The notes beneath the pieces were generated by a model that saw nothing but the letters and a program-made list of their open reading frames with translations, was not told the DNA's origin and ran no database searches. Position numbers and translations under genes: made by a program. From Sulfurospirillum deleyianum DSM 6946 (GTDB lineage: Bacteria > Campylobacterota > Campylobacteria > Campylobacterales > Sulfurospirillaceae), in contig NC_013512.1 in NCBI RefSeq assembly GCF_000024885.1, forward strand, positions 558,001-622,000: a DNA stretch of 64,000 nt, in the 5' to 3' direction. Position 1 is the stretch's first letter, and each line of letters opens with the position of its first letter. Positions 4,921 through 16,416 of this stretch are shown in pieces.

Positions 4921-5467
4921 TGGGTTTTCCTTCTGAAGAGGTGTTGTTTTCTTTAGCTTGAATGCTTTCTAACATCGTATGGGTATCTAGTTTTACAATA
5001 GCTTTTCCTGTTTCTAAAAAGAGGGGGAACATCATGCTTTGTTGGACATAAGGCTCAATACGAGATTTAACAAACTCAATGTTGTTAAGAGCTACAGAGA
5101 GTGCTGAAAAAACTAAAAAGATTTTCATACTTCCTACGGCAAATCCTAAAAGTTTGTCAATAATACCAAGACCACTTAAATTGATAATATGTGAAAGAAG
5201 ATAACCCAACAAAAGAGCACTGATCCAAAAAAGAATTAACACAGCGATAAAACCAAAAAGGTAGAGGGATGCTTTGTTTCCGAATGCGAAAAGGTGTGCG
5301 TGGATGAGTTCTCCTGCTTCAGAGGCATACCGTGATGCAAAAAAGATACCACCAATAATTCCTAAAAGACCAAAAACTTCTTTGATAAAGCCATTGATAA
5401 TACCTTTGATTCCGAGAATAAGTACCAAAGCTAATGCAATAAGATCAAACATTACAACATGTGTCAT
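4913..5467 (-). CDS. CvpA family membrane protein
   Basis: A 184-residue protein with four predicted membrane segments (about 8-28, 30-50, 65-90 and 100-125) and the family's N-terminal pattern [16 protein letters not shown]. CvpA proteins were first linked to colicin V production and later to envelope stress tolerance; the mechanism is unclear. GGAG lies about 9 bases before the ATG, which overlaps the stop of the upstream GGDEF gene by 1 base (TAATG). It is followed by fur, as in C. jejuni by my recollection. Confidence 0.88.
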
Positions 5468-6414
5468 TAAAACGCACTCCTAAAACAATTTTTACCACTT
5501 TTTTTTGCTTCATACAGTGCCTTATCAGCTTTGTCTAGTATTTCATCTACGCTCATGTTTTGTCTATGGGAACAAATACCTGCACTGAGGGTCAGATGAA
5601 TATCATGATTTTTGTAAAGCAGTTTACTATCACTGGTCTCTTTTAAAATACGGTCGATAATTTTAATGGCTTCATCAAGGGATGTTCGATTTAAAATGAC
5701 AACAAACTCTTCCCCTCCATAACGATAAATACGCGTACCACGTCTCAGTGAGTTTTGAATGAGTTTTGAGAGAAAAATGAGTGTTTTATCTCCTGCAATA
5801 TGTCCAAACGCGTCGTTGATACTCTTAAAATCATCCGCATCAAACATGACAAGGTGCATATCAAGGTCTTTCTCTTTTCCAAAACTTAAAACTTCTTCAA
5901 GGTCTTTAACCAAAACTCTTCGATTGTGTGTTTTTGTCAATGGATCAATATTGGATTCACGCTCCAACCTCTCCACTTCAAGTTTTAATTTGGCAATCGT
6001 TTCATCAGCGACTTGAAGTTCTTGAAAAATTTTAGTTTGGAAATTATCAAATGCTTGAAGCACATAGTTTGTATCGATGCTGTTATACCCTTTTTTAATA
6101 GCATCAATATCGACAGCAGTTTCATCGGAAATAAATTTTAAAGTATCATTGGTTTTGACAAACTCTTCCAAGCCTTTTTTGACCAATCCAAAGCATGTTT
6201 CACTCACCATCTCTTCTTGAGAGGCGTTAGAAAAGAGATAACTGTGTTTTTTGGGGAGATCCAAAATCTCATCGTTACCATTTTTTTCTAATGTTTCAAT
6301 GAACATGTCATGGTAATACTTAGGATAAGGAGGAATCTCTAAGGTATGTAATTTTTGAAATGTCTCTCCAGCAATTTGAAAAATAAGTGTTGAAATATGA
6401 TTATTATTGTTCAT
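5467..6414 (-). CDS. GGDEF diguanylate cyclase
   Basis: 315 residues. The C-terminal GGDEF domain (about 155-315) has an intact active-site loop GGEEF in RYGGEEFVVIL, preceded by the usual DxLTxxxNRR entry (DPLTKTHNRR). It should therefore make cyclic di-GMP. No I-site RxxD precedes the active loop at the usual distance (TRIYR occupies it). The N-terminal ~150 residues are helical with no recognisable sensor and end in a short coiled coil. There are no membrane segments, so it is cytoplasmic. It has its own promoter-like TATAAT upstream and reads into cvpA-fur-lysS. Confidence 0.92.
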   Translation of the reverse strand: MNNNNHISTLIFQIAGETFQKLHTLEIPPYPKYYHDMFIETLEKNGNDEILDLPKKHSYLFSNASQEEMVSETCFGLVKKGLEEFVKTNDTLKFISDETAVDIDAIKKGYNSIDTNYVLQAFDNFQTKIFQELQVADETIAKLKLEVERLERESNIDPLTKTHNRRVLVKDLEEVLSFGKEKDLDMHLVMFDADDFKSINDAFGHIAGDKTLIFLSKLIQNSLRRGTRIYRYGGEEFVVILNRTSLDEAIKIIDRILKETSDSKLLYKNHDIHLTLSAGICSHRQNMSVDEILDKADKALYEAKKSGKNCFRSAF

Positions 6415-6447
6415 GGTACCCTAATTTAGACAAATTAATTTTGTTCG

Positions 6448-6453
6448 ATTATA
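6448..6453 (-). promoter_or_regulatory. Promoter -10 for the GGDEF-cvpA-fur-lysS run
   Basis: On the minus strand a perfect TATAAT lies about 34 bases upstream of the GGDEF start, in the 87-base gap after the PilT-type gene. Campylobacterota sigma-70 promoters rely mainly on the -10 box, so no -35 was sought. Confidence 0.55.
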
Positions 6454-6501
6454 GCTTGAAGAAGCTGTAATCTTTGTAAAATAGTTTGATTATGCAAGAA
6501 T

Positions 6502-7569
6502 TTAAATGCCCATATTGTTTAAAAGTTCTTGAGGTTGGGTCGAATAACGAATCGCATCTTCTTTGGTAATAAAGTTGGCTCGAAGATGTTTCATCATTGC
6601 TTGTGTCTGCGTAATCATGCCTGTTTTTTGTTGGTTGAGTTGCATTTGTGAATAGATTTGGTGCATTTTATTTTCACGGATAAGGTTCGCAATAGGCGCA
6701 TTATTGATCATAATTTCGTGAATAGCCACCCTTCCTCCGCCAATACGAGGGAGGAGACTTTGTGAAATAACAGCATATAATGAGGATGCTAGCATATTTC
6801 TCACTTGTACCTGTTCTGCACCTTCAAAACTATCGACGATACGATTAATCGTTTGAACAGCAGAGTTTGTATGCAATGTTCCTAGTACCAAGTGACCTGT
6901 TTCAGCTGCGGTAATAGCGGTACTAATCGTTTCTTGATCACGCATTTCCCCTACAAGGATGACATCGGGGTCTTCACGTAAAGAAAATTTAAGTGCACGT
7001 GCAAAGCTTTTGGTATCATCCCCCACATTGCGGTGGGAAAAGAGAGCTTTTTTGTTATTGTGAATAAATTCGACAGGATCTTCGATGGTAATAACGTGAC
7101 GATGTTCATAAAGGTTGATTTCATTCAGGAGGGCAGCTAGGGTCGTTGACTTTCCGCTACCTGTTGGCCCAGTAACTAAGATAAGTCCTTTTTCTCTTTT
7201 AACAACATCTTTAAAAACAATAGGCGCATTGAGTTCATCTAACGAGGGAATTTCTATGGGGATAATTCTAAATGCCGCAGCTAATTCGCCTCCCATCGTA
7301 TAGTAATAATTCGCACGAAAACGTCCAATATCTGGGAACATAATGGCAAAGTCGAGTTCTTTTTCTTCTTCAAGTTTCTTTTTTTGTTTATCGGTAATGA
7401 GGGTATAGCAAATTTCTTCGATGATATTACCATCAAGTTTTTCCATATCAAGAGGAACTAGTTTCCCATCGATACGAATTTGAGGTTCACTACGGCTGAC
7501 CAGATGTAAATCAGATGCTTTATACGCAACAACATTTTTCAATAATGCCTTAATGTTAATTGATGCCAT
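6502..7569 (-). CDS. PilT-type retraction/secretion ATPase
   Basis: A 355-residue cytoplasmic hexameric ATPase of the type II/IV secretion superfamily, PilT branch. It has an N-terminal PAS-like domain (1-100), Walker A GPTGSGKST (about 138-146), an Asp box (HVITIEDPVEF), Walker B (DVILVGEMRD) and a His box (GHLVLGTLHTN). AIHEIM near residue 285 is the PilT-type AIRNLI-region equivalent. It would power pilus retraction or DNA uptake, but no pilin or PilB/C genes are nearby, so its partner machine is unknown. It lies between gatC and the GGDEF gene. Confidence 0.88.
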   Translation of the reverse strand: MASINIKALLKNVVAYKASDLHLVSRSEPQIRIDGKLVPLDMEKLDGNIIEEICYTLITDKQKKKLEEEKELDFAIMFPDIGRFRANYYYTMGGELAAAFRIIPIEIPSLDELNAPIVFKDVVKREKGLILVTGPTGSGKSTTLAALLNEINLYEHRHVITIEDPVEFIHNNKKALFSHRNVGDDTKSFARALKFSLREDPDVILVGEMRDQETISTAITAAETGHLVLGTLHTNSAVQTINRIVDSFEGAEQVQVRNMLASSLYAVISQSLLPRIGGGRVAIHEIMINNAPIANLIRENKMHQIYSQMQLNQQKTGMITQTQAMMKHLRANFITKEDAIRYSTQPQELLNNMGI

Positions 7570-11216: not shown

Positions 11217-11247
11217 AGGTTGCTGATCAAAAAAGATCAGCAACCTT
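11216..11247. terminator. Bidirectional hairpin between hisG and the response regulator gene
   Basis: A perfect 13-base inverted repeat (AAGGTTGCTGATC and its complement, arms 11216-11228 and 11235-11247) surrounds a 6-A loop. It begins at the hisG stop codon and also encodes the last five residues (VADLF) and stop of the convergent response regulator. T-rich tracts flank it on both strands. Confidence 0.75.
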
Positions 11248-11607
11248 AGCAATTTTACTGCTTAAATCATTCTCTCGAATAGGCTTTACCAAAAAATCAA
11301 ACGCTCCATGTTCAAATGCTTCATTTTTACGTGTTTCATCTGTGGTGAGAACAATAATAGGAATTTTTTTAAATTCTAGCATAGATTGAATGTTTGTCAA
11401 AAATTCGATGCCATCCATAACAGGCATTTTGATGTCTAGCAATACAAGGTCAATATCGCCTTGTGTCTTAAGAAGATTGATAGCATCGAGTCCGTTGGTG
11501 GCTTCCATAATCACATCAACGGTTTGATTTTTGCGCAACATGGAACTAATTAATTTCAGATTAATAAAATCGTCATCAACGGCTAAAATTTTTAACTTTT
11601 TTTGCAT
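11227..11607 (-). CDS. Single-domain response regulator
   Basis: A 126-residue stand-alone receiver. All phosphorylation residues are present: acidic pocket D11-D13, phospho-acceptor D58 in LLDIKMP, the switch Thr in VLTTDE and the Lys in LVKPIR. There is no output domain, so it must act by protein contact, in CheY fashion. It is the last gene of a signalling cluster, 12 bases after the hybrid kinase, and probably takes phosphate from that kinase. Confidence 0.92.
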   Translation of the reverse strand: MQKKLKILAVDDDFINLKLISSMLRKNQTVDVIMEATNGLDAINLLKTQGDIDLVLLDIKMPVMDGIEFLTNIQSMLEFKKIPIIVLTTDETRKNEAFEHGAFDFLVKPIRENDLSSKIAKVADLF

Positions 11608-11619
11608 TAGAGTACCTTT

Positions 11620-14600
11620 TTAAATAAACTTGTGAATGAGTGTTTCTAAATCTTTTTTGCTAATTTGATTTGGTAAGATAGCGTCAAATGCAACCGTGCT
11701 TTCTAGATTTTTATCTTTTGGATCAACAAACATAACGGTATGTATTTTACCTAAATTTTGTTCATTTGTGATGGATTGAACAATCGATGCGAAGCTCTCT
11801 AAATCTTCTAAAAGCATCTCTTTATCAAACAGAACTAATTTATAATGGTTGGATTGAAGCTTGTTTTTAAGATCATTATACGATGTCGAAGCGTCAACAT
11901 TTTCACACATTTTACTGAGTACGCTGGTGAAAATTTTTGTTTCAATCGGGCTTTTTTTCAAAACCAAAATATCTTTTACGACAACGGAAGATAACGCTGG
12001 GATGATTGGTTCATTTGACTCATTTTCATTTACTGTAAGAGCCTCAAAAGAGGGAGAGTGCTCTATAGTCTCTTCTACTTTTGTCTCGGGATTTGATATC
12101 GGTGCTATCTCTGGTTGTACCTCATTGGTGGTTGCTTCATTGTCTATTTTATTGTGCATAAAAACATTGAGGATGTTAATGATATTATCTTTTTTAATAG
12201 GTTTTGTGATGTACTCATCCAATCCCTCTTTCATAAAACGCTCACGATCACCTTTAAGTGCGTTAGCGGTAATAGCAACGATAGGTATGTGCGTTTGATG
12301 ATTTTTTTCTTCATACTCTAAAATTTTATGGGTCGCTTCAATACCATCCATAACAGGCATTGCAATATCCATAAAAATCATATCAAACGTATCTGTTTTT
12401 CTGCGCTCTAATGCTTGAAGACCATTGGGTACGATAGTGATATTTAAGCCTAAATCTTCTAAGGTACGACGGATGAGCTTTTGGTTGATTTCATTATCTT
12501 CTGCCACTAATACATTGGCTTTAAATTTTTTACCAATCGCTCCTTTTGGAAGAGGTTGTACTTCAACTCTATTCTCTTTAGCTGGTAAAAACTCGCGTTT
12601 TGCTTCGAGTGCTTTGACGAGTTTTGTAATATTAATTGGCTCATAAATCGGGGTGATATAGCGTGTGTTGTATTCACCAAATTTTGATTGTTGTGAAGAT
12701 TTAAAAATGAGTAGAATAGGAAGTTTGATTTTTTTGTACTCTTCGAGTTCTTCTTTGGTTAAATTATTATAATCCGCCACAATGATATTGCTTCCAGATT
12801 TAAAAATAAGATTTTTAAGTGCTGGAAAGTCACTGTAGTAGCGAACTTGAGAACCAAAATATTTGAAATAATCGTACATAAATTCGGTATGCGCTTTAGT
12901 ACTATTCAGTGGAGAGTAGAGCGCACAATTAAAGTCACTGAAGTGATTCTTGTAATCGGTTCCACTCGCGCTGGATTCTGGAAGATCTAAAATAAAGAAG
13001 AAACGGCTACCTTGTCCTTCTTCACTTTCAACGTCAAGTTTTCCTCCCATGAGGGCGATATATTTTGAAGAGATAGTAAGACCAAGTCCTGTTCCTCCAA
13101 ATTTTCGAGTAATGGTAGAATCTGCTTGATTAAATGCGTCAAAAATACCTTCAATTTTCTCTTTGTTAATACCGATTCCAGAGTCACGGACACTAAAGAG
13201 CACTTTTGCTTTATCCAGAGGGGCATTTTCTAAACGTTTAATTTCAACCGTAATTTGACCATTGTTGGGTGTAAATTTAACAGCGTTACTCATAAGGTTA
13301 ATGAGAACCTCTTTGATTTTAACCGAGTCCCCTTTAAGGTAATTGTGAAGACTTGGATCCATATAAAGAGAGAGTTGAATATTTTTTTCTGCCGCTTTAG
13401 GTCCATAGACTTCAACAGCATTTTCAAATTCATCAATAGGAGAAAAAAGACTTTCATCGATTTCAATTTTATTACTTTCCACTTTTGAAAGGTCAAGGAT
13501 ATTATTAATAATCGCTAAAAGATTTTCTGAACTTTTCTCAATAACATCTACAAATTCACGTTTTTCTTCATCTAAGTCAGAATTTTTGAGTAATTCTGTA
13601 AAACCGATAATGCCATTAAGTGGCGTTCTGATTTCGTGTGACATGTTAGCAAGAAAGATACTTTTTGCTGCACTTGCTTCTTCTGCATTTTTCTTCTCTT
13701 TGGCAATATTTTCAATCGCTTTATCAATGATGCCATAAGCGACGTTCATACCTTCTGCCGTATTAAAGTCAACTTTTTCTTTTGTCTCAGCCAATTCTTC
13801 AACACGTGTGAAAATATTTTCAAGTCCTTTAACATTCTTTCTAAATTGTGCTGAAAGCCCTAATCCTAAGAACATTAAAACAATAGAAATAACCCAAATA
13901 AGACCTGTGAGAACAAGTTGAATTTGATTTTGGTTGTTGTAGTTCATCTCTTCGTTATTTAAAGAGAGTTTGATAATTTGTGCAGATTTGTCTAAAAGAT
14001 CAATTTTTTTGGTGAGAAGATTGAACCATAATGTTGGATCAATCAAATATTCACCACTTTGTGCTGCGGTCATCAGTTCAGCTTTAACCCGAGTGATGTC
14101 TTCTTCTAGCTTTAAGTTTTCAGGAAGTTTATAAAGGTTTTCGATACTTGTTTTTGTTGCGATGTCGTTAATAGTTGTATGATCGAATGTATTTGAAACA
14201 CTTAAAATACTAATCCATATTTTAAGATCTTCTGGACTAAAAGGAACATATTGACTTAGAATTTTAGAAACAAATCCCCTCTCTTGTCCTAAGTACTCTA
14301 TATTTTTGTACAAAGCAATAAGAGAATAGCTTAAGTTTGAAATAGTGGAGTTGGTATTAATCGTTCCAATCGACTCTACTTCTTTAAGTAAATGGGTATT
14401 AAGTTGGCTATAGTAACCAAAAAAGACGTCATTAAAATTGATGGAAAAATTATCAATTTTTTGACGAATTTCAACAATTTTTGTGAGAAGCGCAACCGAA
14501 TTTTTAACAGAAGATGACATCTCACGTGTTTGAAAATAATCATGAAATTCTTTAATCGCTTTATTGACATTAATGCGTTGTTCTTGGAGTGCCTCCTTAG

Positions 14601-14826
14601 CAATACCGCCTTCGCTTGAAAGGTATGAAGCACTTAACCCTCTCTCTTTTGCAAGTTCAATAGAGAGTGCACTGAGAACTTTAGTGCTTTCAAATTTGCT
14701 TTTGTGTTGTAAAGTCGCATCAAATTGCGTGTAAGTCACAAAGAAAAAATAACTTGAAAAAATAAAAAGAATAATCAACGGATATTGACTAATCATCCTC
14801 AACGTGTTTTGCATGGTTAATTTCAT
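11620..14826 (-). CDS. Hybrid sensor histidine kinase with NIT-like sensor and receiver domains
   Basis: 1068 residues. Order: TM1 (about 13-31); a periplasmic all-helical region (35-300) resembling the nitrate/nitrite-sensing NIT domain, with the hallmark ELAKERGLSASYLS near 58; TM2 (303-325); HisKA with phospho-acceptor H397 (NMSHEIRTPLNG); HATPase_c with N-box near 510, DSGIG near 550 and GGTGLGL near 580. A receiver-like segment lacking the acceptor pattern follows (630-745). Next is a complete receiver (770-890, D820 in FMDIAMP), and a second degenerate receiver closes the protein (945-1068). AAAGGA lies 8 bases before the ATG. The ligand is inferred from the fold and no nitrate-metabolism gene is nearby. 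Confidence 0.9.
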   Translation of the reverse strand: MKLTMQNTLRMISQYPLIILFIFSSYFFFVTYTQFDATLQHKSKFESTKVLSALSIELAKERGLSASYLSSEGGIAKEALQEQRINVNKAIKEFHDYFQTREMSSSVKNSVALLTKIVEIRQKIDNFSINFNDVFFGYYSQLNTHLLKEVESIGTINTNSTISNLSYSLIALYKNIEYLGQERGFVSKILSQYVPFSPEDLKIWISILSVSNTFDHTTINDIATKTSIENLYKLPENLKLEEDITRVKAELMTAAQSGEYLIDPTLWFNLLTKKIDLLDKSAQIIKLSLNNEEMNYNNQNQIQLVLTGLIWVISIVLMFLGLGLSAQFRKNVKGLENIFTRVEELAETKEKVDFNTAEGMNVAYGIIDKAIENIAKEKKNAEEASAAKSIFLANMSHEIRTPLNGIIGFTELLKNSDLDEEKREFVDVIEKSSENLLAIINNILDLSKVESNKIEIDESLFSPIDEFENAVEVYGPKAAEKNIQLSLYMDPSLHNYLKGDSVKIKEVLINLMSNAVKFTPNNGQITVEIKRLENAPLDKAKVLFSVRDSGIGINKEKIEGIFDAFNQADSTITRKFGGTGLGLTISSKYIALMGGKLDVESEEGQGSRFFFILDLPESSASGTDYKNHFSDFNCALYSPLNSTKAHTEFMYDYFKYFGSQVRYYSDFPALKNLIFKSGSNIIVADYNNLTKEELEEYKKIKLPILLIFKSSQQSKFGEYNTRYITPIYEPINITKLVKALEAKREFLPAKENRVEVQPLPKGAIGKKFKANVLVAEDNEINQKLIRRTLEDLGLNITIVPNGLQALERRKTDTFDMIFMDIAMPVMDGIEATHKILEYEEKNHQTHIPIVAITANALKGDRERFMKEGLDEYITKPIKKDNIINILNVFMHNKIDNEATTNEVQPEIAPISNPETKVEETIEHSPSFEALTVNENESNEPIIPALSSVVVKDILVLKKSPIETKIFTSVLSKMCENVDASTSYNDLKNKLQSNHYKLVLFDKEMLLEDLESFASIVQSITNEQNLGKIHTVMFVDPKDKNLESTVAFDAILPNQISKKDLETLIHKFI

Positions 14827-14848: not shown

Positions 14849-15244
14849 TTAATTTAATGTTATTTTGTAAGTGGAGGCAATCTCTTGACATAAGGGACTG
14901 TTTTTTGAACCTTCTTTTAAAAGCAAAATGGCTTCATCTTGTTTGGTGTGATTTTTAAGATAAGCTTCTGCAAGATAGCATTTTGCTTTAACATTTCCTT
15001 TCATAACGGCTTGTTCTAAATAGGGAATGGCAAGGGCAGCATTGGCTTCTAATCCTTCTCCATAAAGGTACATTTTTCCTAGGTAAAAGTAACTTTGCAT
15101 ACTACTTTCTTGTTTAATAGAGCGTTCAAATAGCTCCTTGGCATCGCTATAATGACCACTTTTGTATGCCAATACCGCTTCTCTAAAAAGGTCTGCATGA
15201 GCAAACGAGAGAAGAAAAAGGGTCGAAAACAAAACTTTTTTCAT
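14849..15244 (-). CDS. Secreted Sel1/TPR-repeat protein
   Basis: 131 residues with a signal peptide (about 1-17, KVLFSTLFLLSFAHA, cleavage after AHA). At least two Sel1-like repeats follow (AVLAYKSGHYSDAKELFERS; YFYLGKMYLYGEGLEANAAL), each a helix pair. It is probably periplasmic and a protein-protein contact module. The start overlaps the stop of the upstream PAS/Hpt-like gene by 4 bases (ATGA). Position in the signalling cluster suggests it may contact the kinase's periplasmic sensor, which is speculation. Confidence 0.8.
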   Translation of the reverse strand: MKKVLFSTLFLLSFAHADLFREAVLAYKSGHYSDAKELFERSIKQESSMQSYFYLGKMYLYGEGLEANAALAIPYLEQAVMKGNVKAKCYLAEAYLKNHTKQDEAILLLKEGSKNSPLCQEIASTYKITLN

Positions 15245-16416
15245 AAAATACTTTCCTTAAATGTTTCAATGCTGTGTTGAAGTTTTTCTAAGATATGTAA
15301 GATTTCATCTTTGGTATCAAAATCTAAGCTGGTTTCAAGATGCTCAAAATGATGATATAGCGAAAGGATATGTAAGTGTAAAGCAACACTTTTTAATTTA
15401 TTAAGCTCTTCTTTTGCTTGAAAACGATCATTGATCGTAATCGCTTGTGTAATGAGTGGCATAGATGTGCTAAGGGTTTCAAGATATTCTTCCATAATCT
15501 GTGCGAGAGTACTAATATCAAGCCCCAGAGATTCTGCGCATTCTGACAAATCAAATGTTTCATCATACTCCTCTTGCTGGGGTAGCGTTTTTTCATCTGC
15601 AAAAAGGGTGGTGTCTTTGAGTAAATCTTCGTAGTTATCTTCTGGGTACGCTTCATCAACAGGAGATGAGACTGTTTCAAATGTTAAATCGTGAGGCTGA
15701 ATCTGATCAATAGAACAATATTCAACAGGCGTAACGCTCTCTTCTTCCAAGGGTTTGTCTGCTTTTTTTGTCTCTAAAATTGCTTCGTCGAATTTTAATT
15801 TGAAGGAAGAGGGCTCCTCTTCATCTTCTATAACGCTCTTGAGTGGAAGCCCCAATGAGCTCTCCTCATCGCGTGCATCACTCTCTTGTGCTATAGGTGC
15901 TTCAAAAAGAGAGGTGGCGTCTTGAGGGGTGAATGAGAAATCTTCTTCTATCGTCTCCTTGGATGAAGTAAAAGAGGGACGCTCAAAAGAAGAGGAGAAC
16001 GATTCACTCAGGGTTGTTTCTTCTTTGGGGGGAACGGGAATTGCAAGAACAGGCTCAAAAGCAATAGTGTGTTCAAAATCATGTTGCATAAGAGGGTGCG
16101 TCACTTCTATTCCATAAAAAAGGGTGTTGCCATTGATCTCGTGTTGTAGATAGATCTCATGGATACTTAGTGTTGTTTCAATCTCTTTGCCATTTTTAAG
16201 TTTGATCAATGCTTTTTTATGGGGAGTGCCACTGTGCAGGGCATAATCAATCCATGAAAAATTTTTAAATTTAAAAATAAAACCGGGTTTATTCATAAAA
16301 AGATCGGCAAAATCGTTGTGATAATTGCGGAATTCTTCCATATCTTCGTACCCTAAAAGGGACAACTCTTCATTCCCGATCCCTAAAAATAAACCATTTT
16401 TGTCATAAAGTACCAA
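15241..16416 (-). CDS. PAS-like protein with acidic linker and degenerate Hpt domain
   Basis: 391 residues. The N-terminal ~110 residues look PAS-like (starts YDKNGLFLGIGNEELSLLGY). The middle (about 120-290) is a long low-complexity Glu/Ser/Asp-rich linker, likely disordered. The C-terminal ~95 residues form an Hpt-like helical bundle. The signature helix reads NKLKSVALHLHILSLYHHFEHLE, where Hpt domains normally have AHxLKG: the phosphorylated His is replaced by Asn. It may therefore bind receivers without relaying phosphate. It is the first gene of the four-gene signalling cluster, with ATGA coupling to the next. Confidence 0.65.
   Translation of the reverse strand: MVLYDKNGLFLGIGNEELSLLGYEDMEEFRNYHNDFADLFMNKPGFIFKFKNFSWIDYALHSGTPHKKALIKLKNGKEIETTLSIHEIYLQHEINGNTLFYGIEVTHPLMQHDFEHTIAFEPVLAIPVPPKEETTLSESFSSSFERPSFTSSKETIEEDFSFTPQDATSLFEAPIAQESDARDEESSLGLPLKSVIEDEEEPSSFKLKFDEAILETKKADKPLEEESVTPVEYCSIDQIQPHDLTFETVSSPVDEAYPEDNYEDLLKDTTLFADEKTLPQQEEYDETFDLSECAESLGLDISTLAQIMEEYLETLSTSMPLITQAITINDRFQAKEELNKLKSVALHLHILSLYHHFEHLETSLDFDTKDEILHILEKLQHSIETFKESIL

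Follow-up and report, generated by a model that had tools for sequence, protein, structure and literature searches.

The Hpt domains of RcsD, BarA and ArcB carry a phospho-His; FimL, a ChpA-like Hpt protein that serves as a scaffold, lacks this residue and is not known to have a PAS head. In a 2025 survey, the His is missing from 90 of 10,312 bacterial Hpt domains (about 0.9%); the survey describes the pseudo-receivers of ShkA and CikA as inhibitors of their own kinases, with a bound ligand lifting the block in ShkA, and terms pseudo-receiver mechanisms a mystery (excerpt of PMC12632262). AHP6 is a plant pseudo-HPt that has Asn in place of the phospho-His and may compete with working Hpts (excerpt of PMC7402358). 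The non-phosphorylated Xpt domains of ChpA from Pseudomonas aeruginosa are suspected protein-binding scaffolds, and FimL is called a hub protein of Pil-Chp in the same account (excerpt of PMC12632253).

Here, we describe a PAS-Hpt protein encoded in a 64,000 nt stretch of the genome of Sulfurospirillum deleyianum DSM 6946 (the window; GCF_000024885.1, NC_013512.1, 558,001-622,000 of the forward strand). It resembles AHP6 in being an Hpt protein with Asn at the phospho-His position, but AHP6 is a lone Hpt, whereas the window protein adds a PAS head and a linker; moreover, Asn is one of nine residues found at the site in this family, and in relatives of the window protein a His-bearing Hpt is part of the same chain. 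These multi-copy relatives are like ChpA in that a single chain holds Hpt-type domains of both sorts, dead and working, although ChpA is the CheA-type kinase of a pilus chemosensory system, whereas the PAS-Hpt protein is itself no kinase and is encoded beside an NIT hybrid kinase. FimL, likened here by description only, shares an Hpt without the phospho-His but differs in its system and in the absent PAS head. ShkA and CikA, like the neighboring kinase with its C-terminal domain REC2, hold a pseudo-receiver inside a hybrid kinase; REC2 differs in having Lys-Lys for the acidic pair and in keeping its Asp. RcsD, BarA and ArcB share the fold of their Hpt domains with the window domain. Dead Hpts are a known kind, but a phylum-wide PAS family that pairs dead and His-bearing Hpts beside a kinase ending in a pseudo-receiver did not turn up in the literature searched, and no paper on the PAS-Hpt family was found in that search, which lay mostly outside subscription journals. 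Within one orthologous block, some loci combine His-bearing and dead Hpts in one chain, others have just the dead Hpt and still others have lost the kinase, and this natural range makes the role of the dead Hpt testable against natural variants.

Layout and fold of the PAS-Hpt protein

The protein and its parts occupy the following window positions:
15241-16416, minus strand: PAS - acidic linker - His-less Hpt protein, 391 aa, TTG start
16099-16416, minus strand: PAS-like head, residues 1-106, the most conserved part of the protein (FKNFSWIDYALHSG)
15562-16098, minus strand: acidic, mostly disordered linker, residues 107-285
15244-15561, minus strand: Hpt-fold domain, residues 286-391, from AlphaFold2 and VIA-align
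15400-15402, minus strand: Asn339 codon at the phospho-His position (N-K-L-K-S), from sequence and alignment

The ORF starts with TTG at 16416, its upstream sequence being AAAGGATC; TTG or ATG is aligned at the start codon position in 29 of 30 loci, and the 30th locus is truncated at a contig end. At E<=1e-3, 44 of 60 relatives have a match to the protein. It is missed by every Pfam and NCBIfam model, Hpt domain and head included; its fold was assessed from an AlphaFold2 model built on 35 input sequences. The pLDDT is about 90-97 both for residues 1-106 (PAS-like) and for residues from about 290 to 391, which form five helices, and residues 115-201 of the linker are disordered. VIA-align of residues 286-391 returned 3myf_B as the best match (Z 14.2, 2.2 A over 105 residues), followed for Hpt domains by AHP1, HptB, BarA and ArcB (Z 13.1-12.1); Hpt domains fill all of the top 13 rows, and designed or fusion four-helix bundles score lower (Z about 10-11.8). 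The five predicted helices and the match to 3myf_B bear out the preliminary description, made from the DNA letters alone, that the Hpt fold appears intact, and the linker is long and acidic, as was stated there. The PAS-like head that it also proposed stands in part: the predicted fold is confident and the nearest Foldseek matches are PAS, LOV and heme-PAS domains (DosP, YtvA and FixL), but these matches are weak (E from 1.9e-3, target TM about 0.5-0.6) and Pfam gives none.

A sequence profile searched against the PDB gave no significant match, the top row being the Hpt domain of RcsD (YojN) at E 0.54. The profile of the window Hpt domain also matches Hpt copies in relatives that Pfam does recognize: L063, L077, L079, L081 and L082 are above the Pfam Hpt cut-off, with L050, L060 and L083 below it, and L077, L079, L081 and L082 each contain two or three Pfam Hpt stretches. 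These stretches tie the window domain, itself unseen by Pfam, to the Hpt family. Compared with a functional phosphotransferase of PF01627, the window domain has the fold but neither the phospho-His of HxLKG nor a score above the Pfam cut-off; with an Hpt fold and no phospho-His, it has the structural mark of a pseudo-HPt of the AHP6 type, whose functional mark would be inhibition of a phosphorelay through competition.

Within the linker, a YxSIDQI stretch (YCSIDQI in the window; about 15697-15729, minus strand, residues about 230-240) has a pLDDT of about 84 and is retained in many members of the genus, including the shortened proteins of L152 and L153. It is possibly a binding motif.

The phospho-His site in single- and multi-copy proteins

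The signature helix of the window domain is EELNKLKSVALHL, in which Asn339 stands in the column where relatives have the His of SHKLKGVAANL. Across 30 orthologues from the genus and family of the window, the site is occupied by Leu (5), Ala, Ser, Thr, Tyr and Ile (4 each), Met and Val (2 each) and Asn (1), and never by His (0/30). The missing phospho-His of the preliminary description is thus a property of the family, and no His-based phosphotransfer can proceed via the window domain, again as proposed there. The check that it proposed, whether the Asn is fixed across orthologues, turned out negative: Asn is found in the window protein only, and at 1/30 it is ruled out as a conserved functional residue. 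A His nearby, named beforehand as the finding that would speak against the idea, was sought by sequence, and no replacement column is conserved, the best being H347 (H+8) with His in 16/30. Phosphorylation of Ser, Thr or Tyr at the site is conceivable in single proteins; many others carry Leu, Ile, Val, Ala or Met.

Around the site, L341 is present in 30/30 orthologues and K342 in 29/30, and position 343 is Ser (19) or Gly (11) in all 30. The dN/dS ratio ranges from 0 to 0.21 for the Hpt domain and from 0.06 to 0.30 for the linker (9 of 10 pairs computable in each case); the Hpt domain is under purifying selection. As the His is absent family-wide and dN/dS is low, the missing residue cannot be put down to a sequencing error or to recent loss.

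Scanning of genome contigs gave 48 loci, attributed to Campylobacterota or to MAGs of this type except for one labeled only Proteobacteria bacterium. When 398 genomes of the order were scanned, 224 had a match at E<=1e-10, although some of these matches are probably no more than PAS heads of other proteins. From 132 PAS-head proteins, 106 remained once those with identical last 60 residues had been dropped; six have no Hpt match (four truncated at contig ends, L072 and L147 not), leaving 100 proteins with head and Hpt, a set that lies apart from the short variants (L159, L161, L163, L164, L178-L185 and L187) and from loci with REC2 only. Among the 100, 46 have a single His-less copy, 32 a His-bearing copy followed by a His-less one, nine two His-bearing copies followed by a His-less one, and nine a His-less copy followed by a His-bearing one; the rest are three single-copy proteins with His (L062, L068 and the contig-end-truncated L073) and one truncated protein (L146). 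With L073 and L146 excluded as truncated at contig ends, all complete multi-copy proteins (50/50) have exactly one His-less copy accompanied by one or two His-bearing copies; these proteins come from distant relatives, in Campylobacterota families other than that of the window.

Most His-bearing copies read SHKLKGVAANL or a near variant. In the His-less copies, Lys is found at H+3 in 38/46 single-copy and 47/50 multi-copy domains, and Gly, Ser or Ala at H+4 in 45/46 and 47/50, respectively; the H+4 residue of L152 is Asn. L062 and L068 have His at the site, with LKG changed to VLG/LLG, and the LKG is lost in the short variants. A tree of 130 Hpt domains (95 columns, His column omitted) is poorly resolved: the His-less copies in second place in Sulfurimonadaceae-type proteins group apart from most His-bearing copies, but neither a tree constrained to hold all His-less copies together (p-AU 0.198) nor one placing the family copies with the His copies (p-AU 0.332) was rejected. 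With both constraints allowed, the tree does not place the Sulfurospirillum copy with a His-bearing or a His-less ancestor.

Several variants were observed alongside these counts. The L062/L068 domain groups with the first copies of f19 proteins (support 95/81). The PAS head and the long acidic linker are present in L072 and L147, but no Hpt was detected there and the free receiver is absent. At L187 (genus g56 of f6; 5255-6517), a 421-aa protein with a diverged head lies in the same place, its first Hpt degenerate and its second His-bearing (GHLLKGTSSNL). In L075-L077 and L080 (Sulfurimonas/Arcobacter-type), the linker between the two Hpt copies contains repeated DDLYDDLL-type motifs.

The gene block and the pseudo-receiver REC2

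Downstream of the PAS-Hpt gene, the window contains:
14849-15244, minus strand: Sel1/TPR-like protein, 131 aa, between the Hpt gene and the kinase; its 5' end overlaps the 3' end of the Hpt gene
11620-14826, minus strand: hybrid histidine kinase with NIT, HisKA with SHEIRTP, HATPase, REC1 with intact Asp, and C-terminal REC2
11623-11985, minus strand: REC2 pseudo-receiver at the kinase C-terminus, AlphaFold2 pLDDT 92
11227-11607, minus strand: free receiver, all catalytic residues present

The cluster with a hybrid kinase and a free receiver that had been described at the outset is therefore present, but the kinase is not the immediate neighbor, as the Sel1/TPR-like gene separates it from the Hpt gene. 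The order uvrC - PAS-Hpt - (TPR) - NIT hybrid kinase - free receiver is conserved. In two locus sets that share some genomes, and wherever enough flank was available, uvrC lies upstream of PAS-Hpt in 44/44 and 52/53 loci and a hybrid kinase like that of the window lies downstream in 40/40 and 52/52; the Sel1/TPR-like gene is found in some families of the block and is absent from others. The entire block is missing from G014, a one-contig genome within the genus of the window, where uvrC adjoins hisG. A gap of roughly 480 bases separates uvrC from the PAS-Hpt gene in many Sulfurimonadaceae-type loci (L119-L138); no Rfam or ARAGORN (tRNA) match was found in the uvrC/PAS-Hpt gap of six loci (L120, L124, L128, L133, L075 and L103).

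The free receiver retains its Asp in 76/77 and its Lys in 77/77 orthologues. After removal of duplicate proteins, and counting only loci with enough downstream DNA, it is present in 48/48 loci with a His-bearing Hpt versus 24/33 without one (naive Fisher p 1.5e-4, kinship ignored); of the nine loci without a free receiver, seven are His-less and two Hpt-less. The pattern fits a relay from REC1 via the His-bearing Hpt to the free receiver in the His-bearing group, with the receiver dispensable in the other. The genome of the window has five other Hpt matches, one of them within a 143-aa protein, and another cellular Hpt could serve the window's free receiver.

Pfam reports no domain at REC2 (KKSPIETKIF...FDKEM...PNQISKKDL), which nevertheless has a receiver fold (CosR, Z 16.6; Spo0F, Z 15.9). 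Its acidic pair is replaced by Lys-Lys, with K10 invariant and K11 nearly so in 37 rows; E15 and D54 are also invariant in these rows, so the Asp is retained, and Asn106 stands for the strand-5 Lys, a position assigned by reading. Judged from these residues, REC2 lacks the catalytic set and is a pseudo-receiver.

REC2 survives in lineages without a kinase core. L160 and L162 have the full kinase with REC2 and the receiver but no PAS-Hpt protein, and in all seven loci of genus g28 of family f11 (L169-L175), uvrC is followed only by a protein of 346-411 aa that ends in REC2. These nine loci indicate that REC2 does not need the PAS-Hpt protein, and an exclusive pairing of pseudo-Hpt and REC2 is ruled out by its occurrence there. 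The g28 protein, which has an apparent N-terminal membrane segment, occupies by gene order what we take to be the position of Campylobacter jejuni Cj1245c. In the excerpt of PMC5135748, Cj1245c is given as a hypothetical protein.

Other lineages have lost phosphotransfer chemistry while keeping the PAS-Hpt protein. The kinase of L152 (G013, a 10-contig genome of the same genus) has 515 aa, in which an acidic linker lies between the sensor region at the N-terminus and REC2; HisKA, HATPase, REC1 and the following free receiver are all absent and the His-less PAS-Hpt is retained. In L153 (G001, 86% complete), the kinase core and the free receiver are gone, and REC1, REC2 and PAS-Hpt are retained. 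All nine loci of genus g15 of family f11 (L161 and L178-L185) encode a short PAS-Hpt protein and a kinase-like protein of 950-971 aa with REC2, and none has an adjacent free receiver (9/9). In the three g15 loci examined by reading, the HisKA His is missing (L161, L178 and L183), and the REC1 Asp is missing in L161 and present in L178 and L183.

Role of the His-less domain

We put at slightly better than even (roughly 55%) the probability that the C-terminal domain is a degenerate Hpt that takes no phosphate on His and is kept as a protein-binding module for docking or co-sensing, the docking and its partner being what we infer. What is observed is the Hpt fold, the absence of the His, selection, synteny, the pairing of dead with His-bearing copies, and the association of the free receiver with the His-bearing copy. 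In multi-copy relatives, the His-bearing copy would relay phosphate from REC1 of the kinase to the free receiver, and the His-less copy would dock the PAS protein on the kinase complex, making the docked PAS head a co-sensor of the kinase. The docking partner would most likely be REC2, although this step is the least certain of the scheme and a guess. Several observations speak against this reading: REC2 occurs without the PAS-Hpt protein in L160, L162 and L169-L175, His stands at the site in the single-copy L062 and L068, the head is found with no Hpt in L072 and L147, H+4 is Asn in L152, and the tree leaves the Sulfurospirillum copy unplaced. In the family of the window, which has no relay copy (one was either lost or never gained), the docking copy would stand alone, and the free receiver would have to draw its phosphate straight from the kinase or from another cellular Hpt. 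We tentatively extend this to a possible conserved core of the phylum-wide block, not phosphotransfer but a phosphorylation-dead interface between pseudo-Hpt and pseudo-receiver that would couple a PAS sensor in the cytosol with an NIT sensor in the membrane, and that would have been kept as lineages shed the relay Hpt, the free receiver, the kinase His and the whole kinase core stepwise.

The preliminary description had proposed a decoy or a scaffold. A decoy, in which the His-less Hpt would damp the relay by vying with functional Hpts for REC1 or the free receiver, has a precedent in AHP6, which carries the same lesion (His to Asn) and may compete with AHP1-5 (excerpt of PMC7402358); the surroundings of the site are conserved in His-less copies, the window has an intact REC1 and an intact free receiver, and its genome has the five other Hpt matches. 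We nevertheless consider it unlikely, as a functional copy is present in the same chain in 50/50 complete multi-copy proteins and the His-less copy persists in lineages that have lost the kinase chemistry or the free receiver, which leaves it few targets for competition. Persistence of the PAS-Hpt protein where kinase chemistry has been lost favors a scaffold or co-sensor over a decoy.

Somewhat more doubtful is a gating role, by analogy with the pseudo-receivers of ShkA and CikA, in which the pseudo-Hpt would bind REC2 and thereby switch the autokinase activity. Pseudo-receivers that inhibit hybrid kinases are known (excerpt of PMC12632262) and REC2 is conserved at the C-terminus of the kinase, but in L169-L175 it outlasts both the kinase core and the PAS-Hpt protein, so gating the kinase is not its sole job. 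That the Hpt is a relic, decaying after loss of the relay copy and without a role beyond carrying the PAS head, is improbable: the PAS-Hpt protein has gone from L160, L162 and L169-L175, the Hpt from L072 and L147, and the LKG from the short variants, but dN/dS is low, the predicted fold is intact, and this is the weakest rival because every one of the 50 complete multi-copy proteins retains a dead copy along with at least one that bears His.

A further point against the docking reading is that the packing of helices, and not docking, may explain the conserved LK[G/S]; in Ypd1, a small residue at H+4 is of more consequence for transfer than for binding (excerpt of PMC6341664).
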